Part shown: positions 566 through 32,673 of the stretch, piece after piece | How the letters are laid out: every line of letters begins with the position of its first letter | Numbering within the stretch: position 1 is the first letter of the stretch | Assembly: GCF_009856865.1 (NCBI RefSeq) | Contig: NZ_WVUD01000039.1 | Location: 1-35,541 of the forward strand | Direction of reading: 5' to 3' | Length of the DNA stretch: 35,541 nt | Origin: Solidesulfovibrio aerotolerans | GTDB lineage: Bacteria; Desulfobacterota; Desulfovibrionia; Desulfovibrionales; Desulfovibrionaceae | Notes under the pieces: model-generated | The model's input: the letters and a program-made list of their open reading frames with translations, nothing else | Told to the model about the DNA's origin: nothing | Database searches by the model: none | Program-made: the position numbers and the translations under genes

Positions 566-1801
566 CTAAATAGGCCGCACGGCGACGGGGGTGTTGCCGG
601 GCAAGCCTTCGAGGTCGGCGGGGATGGTGATGAGCCCGTCGGCCATGAGCAACGTTTTGAGCAGCCCGGATTTGCCGAGCACGGGATGGGCCAGGGGCAG
701 CTGGCCGGGCCGTTCTTCCAGGCGCACGCGCACGTGGTCTTCGCGGCCTTGTTTGGAGGCGACGTTGCGGGAGAGCTGGGCCGGGAAGGTACGCGGCGTG
801 TTCTCAAAGGCGGCCGGATCGCCGGCCAGATGGGCCAGCAGCGGCAGGGCGAATATCAGCAGCACGATTTGGGCCGAGGTGACCTGTCCGGGCAGGCCGA
901 TGGCTGATTTGCCGCCGAGGCTGGCCAGGATGGTCGGTTTGCCGGGACTGATGGCCACGCCGTGGGCCAGGATGTCGGCCCCGAGATTGCGCAGGGCATC
1001 GAGGGTGAAATCGCGCGCGCCAACGGAGCTGCCGCCGGACAGCAATGTCAGGTCGTAGTTGGCGGCAGCTTCGGCCAGGGCGGCCTGGATGCCGGCCAGA
1101 TCGTCGGCCACCAGGGGAAAGGTGGTGGGCGCGGCCCCGGCCTGGCGCAGCATGGCGGCCAGGGTATGGCTGTTGACGTCGCGGATCTGCCCGGGTTTGG
1201 GCGTGGCCTCGGCCGGCACCAGTTCGTCGCCGGTGGAGAGCAGGGCCACGGTGGGGATTTTGCCAACCTTTAGGCTGGTGCGGCCCAGAGCGGCCAAGAG
1301 GCCAATTTCCTGGGGGCGCAGCCGCGTGCCGGCGGCCAGCACTTTCTGGCCCACGGCGGCGTCTTCGGCGGCCAGCATGACGTTGTCGCCCGGGGCCAGG
1401 GACCGGCGCATTTCAATGGCTCCTGCGCCGAGATCCTCGGTGTATTCGACCATGACCACGGCATCGGCTCCGGCCGGGAGAAACGCGCCGGTGACGATAC
1501 GGGCGCAGTGGCCGGCGGGGAGCGGTTTGTCCGGGATGATGCCAATGGGGATGTCCATGGCCAGATCGAGGTAGCCGGGGTTGGAGTCTGTGGCTCCGAA
1601 CACTTCGGCGGCGCGCACGGCGTAACCGTCCATGGCGGCGCGGCTGGCGGCGGGCAGGTCTTCGCCGGCCACGATGTCCTCGGCCAGAATGCGGGAGCAG
1701 GCCGTAGCCAGACCGACGGTTTCGGCCGGCAGGGCGGCAAACGTGCGCAGCAGATCGCGGAATTCGGCCGTGGACACGGCCCGGAAAAAGCCTTCGCGCA
1801 T
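566..1801 (-). CDS. moeA: Molybdopterin molybdenumtransferase MoeA
   Basis: MoeA inserts molybdate into adenylylated molybdopterin, the last step of molybdenum-cofactor synthesis in the cytoplasm. The 411-residue length is normal for the family. Visible motifs are AMDGYAVR (about 57-64), the TGAFLPAGADAVV segment (104-116), STGDEL (189-194), the MoCF-biosynthesis signature SGGSSVGARDF (255-265), SPGKPT (285-290) and GLPGQ (302-306). The last is usually GLPGN, so the Asn-to-Gln change is a small oddity. The C-terminal beta domain (about 335-411) is present. The ATG at 1801 has AAGGA about 11 bases upstream. It lies 23 bases downstream of the glucokinase gene on the same strand and is probably cotranscribed. 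A hairpin array abuts its stop codon. A second MoeA-type gene lies at 4692-6635. Confidence 0.93.
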   Translation of the reverse strand: MREGFFRAVSTAEFRDLLRTFAALPAETVGLATACSRILAEDIVAGEDLPAASRAAMDGYAVRAAEVFGATDSNPGYLDLAMDIPIGIIPDKPLPAGHCARIVTGAFLPAGADAVVMVEYTEDLGAGAIEMRRSLAPGDNVMLAAEDAAVGQKVLAAGTRLRPQEIGLLAALGRTSLKVGKIPTVALLSTGDELVPAEATPKPGQIRDVNSHTLAAMLRQAGAAPTTFPLVADDLAGIQAALAEAAANYDLTLLSGGSSVGARDFTLDALRNLGADILAHGVAISPGKPTILASLGGKSAIGLPGQVTSAQIVLLIFALPLLAHLAGDPAAFENTPRTFPAQLSRNVASKQGREDHVRVRLEERPGQLPLAHPVLGKSGLLKTLLMADGLITIPADLEGLPGNTPVAVRPI

Positions 1802-4691: not shown

Positions 4692-6635
4692 ATGAGACGC
4701 AATATTTATCTGCGCACGATTCCTATTGAGGAGGCGTTGGCGCGGGTTGTGGCCAAGCTGGATCGCAAGGCGCTGGTTGGGGTCGAGCGCATCGAGGCGG
4801 CGCGTGCGGCCGGGCGCATCACGGCCGAGCCGGTCATGGCCCGGTATTCTTCGCCCACCTACCACAGTGCGGCCATGGACGGCATTGCCGTGCGCGCGGC
4901 CGAGACCTTTGCCGCCCGGGAGGGGTCGCCGGTGCGTCTGGCCCAGGGCGAAGGCTTTGTCTTCGTCAACACCGGCCATCCCATGCCCGCGACGTACGAC
5001 GCTGTTATCATGATTGAAAATGTGGTCATGGACGGCGAGACAGCCACCATTGAGGCTCCGGTGGCTCCGTTTGCCCATGTGCGGCGCATTGGCGAGGACA
5101 TTGTGGCCACGGAGATGATCCTGCCCCGGCATCGGCGCATTTCCCCCTACGACGTGGGGGCGCTGCTCTCCTGCGGTGCCTACGAGGTGGCGGTCTACGA
5201 GCGTATTCGCATCCGGGTGATCCCCACTGGCGACGAGGTCATGGATTTTACGGCCCGCCCAGCCCCGGGGCCGGGACAGGTGGTGGAGAGCAATTCCATG
5301 CTGCTCTGCGCCCTGGCTGATGAATGGGGTTTTGCCTGCCATCGCGTGCCGCCCGTGTCCGACGATCCCGAGGCTCTGGCCCGGGCCGTTGCGGAAGGGC
5401 TGGCTTCGGACGCGCATATTGTGGTGACGGTGGCCGGGTCATCGGCCGGCAGCAAGGATTTCGCCCGGGCCACCATGGAGCGGGTGGGCGAGGTGCTGGT
5501 GCATGGTGTGGCGGCCATGCCGGGCAAGCCGTCGCTTTTGGGGGTTGCCACCGACGGCAAGTTGCTTGTCGGCGCGCCGGGCTATCCGGTCAGCGCGGTG
5601 GTGTGTTTCGAGCGGCTGCTCTATCCCCTGGCCTGCTGGCTGACGCGGTGCGAACCGCGTCGTCGCCAGACCGTGATGGCAAGTCTCGCCCGCAGCGTGC
5701 CGTCGCGCATCGGCATGGTGGATTTCGTGCGGCTGGCCGTGGGCCAGGTGGGTTCGCGTTATGTGGCTTTGCCGCTCTCGCGCGGGGCCGGCAGCATTTC
5801 CACCATGACCAAGGCCCAGGCCGTGACCCAGCTTCCGGCCGAGGCCGAGGGCATGGAAGCCGGGGCCGTGGTGTCGGCCGAGTTGCTGGTGGACGCCGGC
5901 GAACTGGAACGCACGCTGGTGTGCGTGGGCAGCCACGACAATACCCTCGACATCCTGGCCGATCTGCTCATGCGCCGTTTGCCGTCCATTCGGTTGGCGT
6001 CGAGTCATGTGGGCAGCATGGGCGGGCTTATTGCCCTGCGCAACGATTCGGCCATGATCGCCGGGGCGCATCTGTTTGATCCGGCCAGCCGCGATTACAA
6101 TTTCCCGTTTCTCACCAAGTACCTGTCCGGCCTTGACGTCACGGTCATCAATCTGGCCATCCGGCAGCAGGGGCTGATCGTGGCCCCGGGCAATCCGCTG
6201 GGCATCACCGGGATGGCCGCTCTGGCCGATGGCACGGTGCGGTATTTAAACCGCCAGCGCGGGGCCGGCACCCGGATTCTCTTCGACTACCACCTGGAGC
6301 AGGCCGGCATCGAGCCTGCCAGGGTATCGGGCTATGACCGCGAAGAGCATACCCACATGGCTGTGGCCATAAACATCCGCACCGGCGCCGCCGACTGCGG
6401 TCTGGGCGTCTATGCTGCGGCCAAGGCCCTGGACCTGGATTTCGTGCCGCTGGCCCAGGAACGCTATGATCTGGTGATTCCCACAGCCTATCTGGATGAT
6501 GTGAAGATCAAGGCGGTGCTGGAAGTGGTCGGCAGCGAGGACTTTAAGACCCGGGTGCGCGACCTGGGCGGCTACGAGACCGCGTGGACTGGCCAGGTGA
6601 TGCAGCCGGGCATGGGCTTGCCGGACGGGGAGTAA
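4692..6635 (+). CDS. MoeA domain fused to periplasmic-binding-like domain
   Basis: A 647-residue fusion. Residues about 1-400 are a MoeA-type molybdotransferase domain, with AAMDGIAVRAAE near 60-71, a Thr-Gly-His segment at 94-96, IPTGDEV at 177-183, VAGSSAGSKDF at 247-257, MPGKPSLLG at 276-284 and GAPGYPVSA at 294-302. Residues about 405-640 are a PBP-like domain of the kind found after MoeA in archaea and anaerobic bacteria, with SHDNTLDIL, SSHVGSMGGL, GAHLFDP and NRQRGAGTRILFDYHL. It has no signal peptide, so the whole protein should be cytoplasmic; the added domain may sense molybdate, tungstate or cofactor. GGAGG lies five bases before the ATG. It is followed after 98 bases by a UPF0016 gene. 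The exact substrate of this second MoeA (Mo versus W) is not determinable here. Confidence 0.9.
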   Translation: MRRNIYLRTIPIEEALARVVAKLDRKALVGVERIEAARAAGRITAEPVMARYSSPTYHSAAMDGIAVRAAETFAAREGSPVRLAQGEGFVFVNTGHPMPATYDAVIMIENVVMDGETATIEAPVAPFAHVRRIGEDIVATEMILPRHRRISPYDVGALLSCGAYEVAVYERIRIRVIPTGDEVMDFTARPAPGPGQVVESNSMLLCALADEWGFACHRVPPVSDDPEALARAVAEGLASDAHIVVTVAGSSAGSKDFARATMERVGEVLVHGVAAMPGKPSLLGVATDGKLLVGAPGYPVSAVVCFERLLYPLACWLTRCEPRRRQTVMASLARSVPSRIGMVDFVRLAVGQVGSRYVALPLSRGAGSISTMTKAQAVTQLPAEAEGMEAGAVVSAELLVDAGELERTLVCVGSHDNTLDILADLLMRRLPSIRLASSHVGSMGGLIALRNDSAMIAGAHLFDPASRDYNFPFLTKYLSGLDVTVINLAIRQQGLIVAPGNPLGITGMAALADGTVRYLNRQRGAGTRILFDYHLEQAGIEPARVSGYDREEHTHMAVAINIRTGAADCGLGVYAAAKALDLDFVPLAQERYDLVIPTAYLDDVKIKAVLEVVGSEDFKTRVRDLGGYETAWTGQVMQPGMGLPDGE

Positions 6636-6733: not shown

Positions 6734-7006
6734 ATGGACTGGAAACTGTTGGCTACCACCTTTGCCACGATTTTCGTGGCTGAACTTGGCGACAAGACGC
6801 AACTCGCCTGTATTCTCACCGCCGCCGACTCCAGGAATCCCTGGGTGGTCTTTGCCGGAGCGTCCCTGGCTCTTGTCGCCACGTCGCTTCTGGGCGTTAT
6901 TTTTGCGCAGTTCATCTGCAATTTCGTCTCGCCCGACATCATCAAGAAAGTGGCCGCCGTGGCCTTTGTGATTATGGGCGTGCTTATCTACTTCGACAAG
7001 CTCTAG
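6734..7006 (+). CDS. UPF0016/GDT1 (TMEM165-type) membrane protein, single-domain
   Basis: A 90-aa inner-membrane protein carrying one copy of the family signature: Glu17-Leu-Gly-Asp20-Lys-Thr in the first helix. Three hydrophobic segments are seen at about 6-30, 40-62 and 68-88. Full-length members have two such repeats; short bacterial forms presumably assemble as homodimers. Characterised relatives move Mn2+ or Ca2+ out of the cytosol, so a divalent-cation exporter role is a family-based inference. An in-frame upstream ATG at 6584 is rejected because it overlaps the previous gene; AGAGGA precedes 6734. Its stop codon overlaps the AGGAG of the UGA-containing gene 12 bases downstream, so the two are almost certainly cotranscribed. 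Confidence 0.85.
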   Translation: MDWKLLATTFATIFVAELGDKTQLACILTAADSRNPWVVFAGASLALVATSLLGVIFAQFICNFVSPDIIKKVAAVAFVIMGVLIYFDKL

Positions 7007-7018
7007 GAGCGCCCCATC

Positions 7019-7252
7019 ATGACCGAGCCGGACCGCCTGAGCTTTGATCTGCGCGACAAATGCTGAGGCCTGGGCATGGAGATAGGTTGGTATCTCCGTC
7101 TGTCCCGGGCGCGCGAGCTGGAATTTCTGGTCGGCCCCAAAACCCGGCCGGTGCTGGAGGATCAGCAGGCCACGGTGTCGGGCTGGCGGCTTGTGGTCAC
7201 GCAGGAGACGGATTTCCTGCGCGCCGTTTTCACCCGGGAGTCTGCCCGGTAG
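7019..7252 (+). CDS. Candidate TusA/SirA-like selenoprotein (in-frame UGA, Sec16)
   Basis: The frame from the ATG at 7019 to the TAG at 7250-7252 contains 77 codons, of which codon 16 (7064-7066) is TGA. AGGAG at 7005-7009 is nine bases upstream. GC-rich third positions run through both sides of the TGA, so one gene continues across it. The translation (Sec as U) begins MTEPDRLSFDLRDKCUGLG. It then shows helix, strand (ELEFLV), helix, strand (WRLVVTQETD) and strand (LRAVFTR), which is the TusA/SirA topology and length. The family pattern is D-x-R/L-G-x-x-C-P. Asp10 plus six positions lands exactly on residue 16, so Sec replaces the catalytic sulfur-carrying Cys, with Cys15 beside it and Gly17 where Pro is usual. 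A SECIS-like stem-loop follows the UGA. The protein probably handles sulfur or selenium as a persulfide/perselenide carrier or redox protein; that role is inferred. Alternatives are a 15-aa leader peptide or a recent nonsense mutation, both less consistent with the downstream structure. Confidence 0.72.
7067..7111 (+). promoter_or_regulatory. Candidate bacterial SECIS element after UGA 7064-7066
   Basis: The apical stem GGAGATA (7078-7084) pairs perfectly with TATCTCC (7091-7097) around the six-base loop GGTTGG, which contains the GU expected for SelB recognition. Eighteen bases separate the UGA from the loop, close to the 17 in E. coli fdhF. A lower stem, GCCTGGG (7068-7074) with CCCGGGC (7104-7110, one G-U pair), closes the element around an internal loop. 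The codons within the stem-loop (ata, ggt, tat) depart from the GC-ending usage of the rest of the gene, as expected when RNA structure constrains sequence. Confidence 0.7.
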
Positions 7253-18433: not shown

Positions 18434-18510
18434 TGGTGCGCCCGGAGCGATTCGAACGCCCGACCGTCGGATTCGAAGTCCGATGCTCTATCCAGCTGAG
18501 CCACGGGCGC
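18434..18510 (-). tRNA. tRNA-Arg (anticodon TCG)
   Basis: Read on the - strand, this forms a full cloverleaf. The acceptor is GCGCCCG/CGGGCGC with discriminator A and encoded CCA (18434-18436). The D arm is GCTC/GAGC. The anticodon stem TCGGA/TCCGA closes the loop CTTCGAA (anticodon TCG, reading CGA/CGG). The T arm is GGGCG-TTCGAAT-CGCTC. The gene is 77 nt with CCA. The NACHT gene lies just beyond its 3' end, the side where integrating elements usually insert, but I find no direct repeat of the tRNA 3' end and no integrase. Confidence 0.95.
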
Positions 18511-31078: not shown

Positions 31079-31321
31079 TTAGATCGTAGGGCCTGGATCG
31101 AAGCTGATTTTGAGCTTTGTTCCAGTGGCAATGGCAAACCGTTGCAGCGTTCGCGTAGACGGCATGACCCGGCCGCTCTCAAGGCGGGCAATCACTGTTT
31201 GCTTTGTATGCATATGCTGCGCCACTTCTTCTTGCGAGAGTCCGGCACGGGATATACTCCAATCAAAGCGGCTGTGATACAGAACTGACTTTATATTTCT
31301 TTGTGCAACGCCTTCTGGCAA
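31079..31321 (-). CDS. XRE-family HTH regulator, possibly N-terminally truncated
   Basis: 80 aa from a TTG at 31321, with no ribosome-binding site. The helix-turn-helix is clear from about residue 26: RAGLSQEEVAQHMHTKQTVIARLESGRVMPSTRTLQRFAIATGTKLKI, which closely resembles HigA-type antitoxins. The 25 residues before it do not resemble the helical N-terminus such antitoxins normally carry, and a stop codon lies four codons upstream of the TTG. I suspect a remnant of a toxin-antitoxin pair, since no toxin ORF is adjacent. It could alternatively be a functional short antitoxin with an atypical start. Confidence 0.55.
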   Translation of the reverse strand: MPEGVAQRNIKSVLYHSRFDWSISRAGLSQEEVAQHMHTKQTVIARLESGRVMPSTRTLQRFAIATGTKLKISFDPGPTI

Positions 31322-32263: not shown

Positions 32264-32673
32264 CTACCCGTCCACGCCCACCCAATTCTCGCAGCGCAGC
32301 CCCGAAACCCGCGTAAATTCGCGCATGTTGTTGGTCACCAGCACCAGCCCGGCTGCCAGCCCTGGGCGGCGATGCGCATGTCCATGCCGCCGATGACCTC
32401 GCCGCGTCGCTCCAAATCCGCTCGCAATGCGCCGTAGCAGGCCGCTGCGGCGGCGTCGAAGGGGAGGATTTCCAGCGGTAGAAGCATGGCCTGCAACGCC
32501 GCCGCATTCTTCTCGCGAGCGCCAGACTTGGCGACGCCGTATTCCAGTTCCGCTACGGTGATCGATGACAGACACATGTCGCCGTAAGACAGCTCGGCAA
32601 ACCGCTGCCGGACTTCCGGCGGCCGGTGCTTGATCAAATAGATGCAGCTATTGGTATCGAGCAGATAGGCCAT
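32264..32673 (-). pseudogene. vapC: vapC toxin (PIN-domain RNase), frameshifted
   Basis: The first 104 codons give a standard VapC: Asp6 in YLLDTNSC, Glu42 in VAELEYG and Asp98 in IGGMDMRIAAQ. The frame then runs into nonsense residues and a stop near 32335. The expected ending, LAAGLVLVTNNMREFTRVSGLRCENWV, continues in another frame to a stop at 32264-32266. One missing base near 32358-32362, in a run of C and G, reconciles the two. The break removes the TNN motif that completes the PIN active site, so the toxin is predicted to be inactive unless the shift is a sequencing error or is suppressed. The start overlaps the end of vapB. Confidence 0.8.

Follow-up and report, generated by a model that had tools for sequence, protein, structure and literature searches.

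The window, a 35,541-nucleotide stretch of Solidesulfovibrio aerotolerans DNA, contains a small gene (7019–7252, plus strand) that, judging from its sequence and homologues, very probably encodes a genuine and so far uncatalogued selenoprotein of 77 residues, with selenocysteine (Sec) at codon 16. This reading, proposed in an earlier note on the same DNA, is upheld by a conserved TGA, a SECIS-like hairpin, a full set of Sec machinery, Cys at the aligned place of eight of nine TGA-free copies, and the loss of the TGA along with the Sec genes in one, incomplete, genome. The UGA site, its conservation and the surrounding gene order were read directly from the DNA, and a Cys–Sec redox relay appears to be the most likely function. 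As a full explanation, a selenoprotein with a TusA-type fold and a Cys–Sec redox mechanism is probable.

Direct reading of the sequence bore out the frame layout of the earlier note. An AGGAG ribosome-binding site (7005–7009, plus strand) overlaps the stop codon of the gene before it; the frame opens with ATG at 7019 and runs for 15 codons to the UGA (7064–7066, plus strand), followed by 61 codons and a TAG at 7250–7252. The spacing that places the UGA at Asp+6, counted from Asp10, is real; the ETD that had been likened to E. coli TusA lacks conservation among the homologues. Purifying selection acts on the part after the TGA, in agreement with the claim that it is coding: over the 45 pairs formed by 10 of the 13 genus genes (L007, L010 and L011 left out), the mean pN, pS and pN/pS are 0.125, 0.476 and 0.26, respectively, and changes at codon positions 1, 2 and 3 number 351, 321 and 1035.

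Protein search revealed a homologue in 36 of 59 genomes, the host included, with one in-frame TGA in each best match, and this TGA occupies the aligned place in all 36 homologue genes. Profile A1 (33 sequences; the close relatives L007, L010, L011 and L028 left out) matches 172 of 348 genomes of the class, and the only stop-free match among the matches listed is a second copy, G033:C21, which has no TGA. Profile A2 (62 sequences) was run against a sample of 395 genomes of the phylum and matches six, every one belonging to the same family as the window. Scanning genome_contigs (84,980 species) with a DNA pattern returned 71 stretches, of which 61 are members scoring above 59 bits by profile; the other ten (L054, L063, L080, L081, L083, L095, L099, L100, L109 and L112), all below 19 bits and all from other taxa, were rejected as chance matches. 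The scan pattern requires TGYTGA and is therefore uninformative on TGA conservation, which the protein and profile searches address. Of the 61 members, 54 are titled with the name of a genus, family or order which we take to belong to Desulfovibrionales, and the remaining seven read only Proteobacteria, Deltaproteobacteria or delta proteobacterium. Cultured strains with a member include Nitratidesulfovibrio oxamicus NCIMB 9442 and Solidesulfovibrio alcoholivorans DSM 5433; Nitratidesulfovibrio is also the genus in which D. vulgaris is now placed. A plasmid search gave no match.

A closer search of 25 genomes, mostly picked for weak or double matches so that the Cys:Sec ratio is not a population figure, yielded 27 matches, 18 with and nine without the TGA. 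Eight of the nine TGA-free matches belong to a divergent subgroup that reads CGLVP, CGLMP or CGLIP and has its Cys at precisely Asp+6, as expected if homologues align either Cys or Sec at this place. These copies (L150, L191, L199 and L200–L204) read CCGLVP, VCGLVP and similar, several end in LDLLDY or LDTLDY, and by sequence they apparently form a separate subfamily beside the Sec form. The ninth, L188 in genome G074, has C-P-C with one extra residue; it lies between the genes for an MBL-fold protein and a flavoprotein and is therefore an orthologue by position. In G074, the best SelB match (92.4 bits) stays under the cut-off and no tRNA-Sec match exceeds 46.8 bits, whereas its congeners G042 and G073 have kept TGA, SelB and tRNA-Sec. 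It is suggestive that TGA loss in G074 goes together with missing Sec genes, which could be unsequenced because the genome is only 85% complete. An ordinary stop or a decayed gene, in which translation would stop at the TGA after 15 residues and the remainder would be fossil or chance, would suit the lack of any Pfam or NCBIfam match to the protein (P0001); however, the retention of the TGA in every genome with a homologue, the protein-type evolution after it and the Cys of the divergent copies leave this explanation a negligible probability.

The selenocysteine machinery was sought in the host genome (4.6 Mb, 161 contigs), and all four genes were found: selA (C97, 4003–5373; 599.5 bits), selB (C97, 7109–9013; 365.1 bits), the tRNA-Sec gene selC (C80, 26957–27046; 83.3 bits) and selD (C95, 202754–203677), which itself contains one TGA. 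SelB is over the cut-off in 53 of the 59 genomes. In the 36 homologue-bearing genomes, tRNA-Sec scores at least 76 bits throughout and SelB passes the cut-off in 33, the three others (G009, G012 and G027) being drafts of 220–490 contigs. For G019, G021 and G049, which lack the gene, the matches listed include no tRNA-Sec above 75 bits. Since almost every one of the 59 genomes has the Sec machinery, its correlation with gene presence is weak.

Just downstream of the UGA, folding revealed a SECIS-like hairpin (7078–7097, plus strand) composed of GGAGATA, the loop GGTTGG and TATCTCC, with the hairpin starting 11 nt and the loop 18 nt after the UGA. The hairpins of the window and of 30 of the 36 genes agree with the bacterial SECIS criteria found in the available part of PMC13188914 (loop 3–9 nt, stem 4–16 bp, G in the first two loop bases, 16–37 nt, MFE ≤ −7.5), and the isolated hairpins of the other six (L015, L017, L027, L028, L030 and L031) fall outside these criteria when strictly applied. 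The fold of the 61-nt region has a z-score of −2.47, with one of 200 shuffles as good. Across the 36 genes (35 distinct), 88.2% of cells are paired versus 84.8% when shuffled (0 of 500); the changed-pair and extra-pair-type counts, two of the five measures, are not above shuffles, 212 and 494 of 500 of which reach them. Pair 31–42 is A-U in 20, G-U in seven and G-C in six of these genes, and pair 33–40 is A-U in 22, G-C in two and unpaired in 11. Over all 36, the covariation of the hairpin (0.122) is lower than that of the slid controls (0.155 with the partner at −2 and 0.192 at +2), and RNAalifold gave no consensus structure. With seven rows removed, namely those with a shifted hairpin (L017, L027, L028, L031 and L040) and the near-duplicates L010 and L011, RNAalifold gave a six-pair hairpin of −8.27 kcal/mol. 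In these 29 sequences, 97.0% of cells are paired versus 93.3% when shuffled (0 of 500), the hairpin outscores every slid version, and A-U to G-C exchange occurs at two pairs, in six and two rows; the two measures again lie within shuffles (174 and 479 of 500).

Codon-preserving randomisation gave a moderate signal, with a mean z of −1.50 and p<0.05 in 13 of the 36 rows, which are not independent. The hairpin codons for E, I, Y and L are frozen as GAG, ATA, TAT and CTC in all 10 genus genes examined. This includes ATA, otherwise rare: it accounts for 3.7% of the Ile codons counted in window genes (gene limits from a mechanical ORF list, in which some starts may be off). Loss of the hairpin in Cys forms is not clear, the L188 region still folding at −10.5 kcal/mol. 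Alternatively, translation might restart after the UGA, or the UGA might be read as Trp or another residue. The window does have an ATG at codon 20, four codons past the TGA, but this codon is Leu CTG in nine of the 10 genus genes examined; moreover, the TGA-free copies are a single frame with Cys rather than Trp at the site in all but L188, and the SECIS-like hairpin is present, which together make this alternative scarcely credible.

The AlphaFold2 model built from 62 sequences (mean pLDDT 91.7) has the elements E6–10, H18–28, E33–38, H40–52, E56–62 and E67–73, with residue 16 just before helix 1. On this model, the protein is likely a compact β-α-β-α-β-β domain of TusA/IF3-C type, in which the neighbouring Cys15 and Sec16 would sit between strand 1 and the start of helix 1. 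Structural similarity search of the PDB gave full-length matches in both directions to the SirA-like 3hz7, HP1264 (2lxr) and E. coli TusA (3lvj_C), with TM scores of 0.63–0.66 and E not below 0.001. None of the best 50 matches, which also include IF3-C and parts of methyltransferases and TDP2, has E <0.001, and the viral fold library gave nothing useful. Searches of Pfam, NCBIfam and the PDB by sequence found no convincing relative, the matches being at chance level (E at least 0.07).

The earlier note took the protein to be TusA/SirA-like, which holds for the predicted order of strands and helices, the similar size and the D-x-R-x3-[C/U] spacing common to the TusA alignment. The assignment to that family did not stand: PF01206 and the NCBIfam TusA models each match 0 of 33 members, profile–profile comparison (hhalign) with 20 TusA domains (alignment A4; ten of the 30 fetched loci left out) gave a probability of 1.8%, and CPxP, invariant in these 20 domains, is absent here, where all 61 members have C-U-G/H/R. 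Since the fold order comes with neither a profile match nor CPxP, we speak of a TusA-like fold, not of the TusA family. Sec in place of Cys and different gene neighbours also set it apart. The sole PF01206 place in the host genome is a separate gene on C75. The connection of YedF with selenium raised in the earlier note holds in part. The available part of PMC2432076 describes SirA-like proteins beside selD, with a COG0425 SirA domain and a distant DsrE-like C-terminus, which resemble the present family in having a SirA/TusA-type domain and a selenium setting; however, that part does not call them Sec proteins, and the present family has no match to the Pfam model of their domain.

Outside the window's genus, the selenoprotein gene is usually flanked by an MBL-fold gene and a flavoprotein gene. 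Where the flank is 700 nt or longer (54 of the 61 loci), the gene immediately upstream encodes an MBL-fold protein in 33, and the one immediately downstream encodes the flavoprotein in 43 of 53; in L047, L068, L077 and L086, a glycosyltransferase-like gene (by reading of the sequence) separates the MBL-fold gene from the selenoprotein gene. The one MBL-fold example scanned matched PF00753, with NCBIfam GloB and Blh matched below their cut-offs, and the one flavoprotein scanned matched PF03358/PF02525. The downstream frame overlaps the selenoprotein gene by 4 nt in 12 of 39 cases, and all 39 frames examined (38 by script, L092 by eye) contain CX2CX2CX4–11C, which we take to be the motif of iron–sulfur flavoproteins.

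SelB and tRNA-Sec very probably decode UGA16 via the hairpin just downstream. We propose that Cys15 and Sec16 might be linked reversibly as a selenenylsulfide. At most of the other loci seen, this bond would be reduced by the next-door flavoprotein, with its flavodoxin fold and CX2CX2CX4–11C motif. The freed selenol could then reduce, or strip sulfur from, a small persulfide or thiol substrate made or consumed by the neighbouring MBL-fold hydrolase (GloB/persulfide-dioxygenase-like). We infer every one of these reaction steps, and the scheme as a whole, from the Cys15/Sec16 selenenylsulfide through the flavoprotein reductant to the MBL-linked substrate, falls somewhat short of probable. More doubtful still is a three-part selenium-dependent module of Desulfovibrionales, in which an iron–sulfur-type flavoprotein would drive the TusA-fold Cys–Sec protein and sulfane sulfur or peroxides would be handled together with the MBL-fold hydrolase.

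Cys15 is not invariant, being G in L198, where G-U replaces C-U, and V or T in five of the eight Cys copies, which weakens the idea of a Cys–Sec pair. This variation, together with the TusA-type fold order and spacing, speaks for the same selenoprotein being a TusA-like carrier, in which perselenide-type sulfur or selenium on Sec16 would be passed to an acceptor with no redox cycling of Cys15. Nevertheless, the protein has no CPxP and no profile similarity to TusA, and its usual neighbours are a flavoprotein and an MBL-fold hydrolase rather than a cysteine desulfurase or a sulfur-relay acceptor; we regard the carrier as unlikely and retain the Cys–Sec relay.

Neither the window locus nor the same locus in its own genus has MBL-fold or flavoprotein neighbours. 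In the window, a GDT1-family gene (6734–7006, plus strand; Pfam match to PF01169) ends 12 nt upstream, and GDT1 recurs in seven of the 61 other loci, none of which has these two neighbours in the available DNA; at seven loci, it was rejected as the general partner of the family. This association would fit a Sec redox protein whose role in the window's genus differs, for example in handling metals or oxidative stress next to the GDT1 cation exchanger. No separate role is needed, however, for genes that are 64–74% identical within the genus and carry the CUG site also seen in the operon forms, and we consider it quite improbable.

The family is absent from the catalogue and the protein-family models checked, as far as the available text of the catalogue extends. 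That text (PMC13188914, 2026, 119 families) has no TusA, SirA or YedF selenoprotein, nor does such a protein appear in the available parts of PMC12013277, PMC1794560 and PMC11124144; the 2006 list of eight D. vulgaris selenoproteins in PMC1794560 is without it. No NCBIfam 20.0 model matches above chance, and the listings from a wider search of openly accessible articles gave no record of such a protein. The DsrE-like selenoprotein listed for D. vulgaris (PMC1794560) is likewise a Sec protein that takes its name from a sulfur-relay family, and it comes from the same bacterial group, but as catalogued (PMC13188914, available part) it has UxxC and PF02635, whereas in the present family CU precedes G, H or R and PF02635 is not matched. 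Adjacent Cys and Sec are shared with the CU-motif families SaoL, SaoC, HgcA, CopZ form 2, MbdU and KCU-star in the same part of that catalogue; these differ in their domains and models, and their named NCBIfam models match 0 of the 33 members here. If the reading is correct, about half of the class genomes examined encode a selenoprotein missing from NCBIfam and the available catalogue text, which would be the first with a TusA-type fold going by that text, overlooked in well-studied sulfate reducers. It would also connect selenium with a flavoprotein/MBL gene order that is conserved, and offer a testable use of Sec in a TusA-type fold.

Elsewhere in the window, a GC-rich unit of 23 nt is arrayed in 7.3 copies (398–562). 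A MoeA fused to a PBP_like domain is encoded at 4692–6635 (plus strand), and a second MoeA-like reading frame was recognised by reading of the sequence (566–1801, minus strand). An HTH_3 reading frame (31079–31321) and a PIN-domain, VapC-like reading frame (32335–32673) lie on the same, minus, strand. A NACHT protein with pentapeptide repeats (PF22735, PF05729 and PF00805; 15127–18288, plus strand) is encoded by a gene that ends about 150 nt from a tRNA-Arg gene (18434–18510, minus strand); it has a weak PADLOC match to mad8 and is possibly a defence gene.
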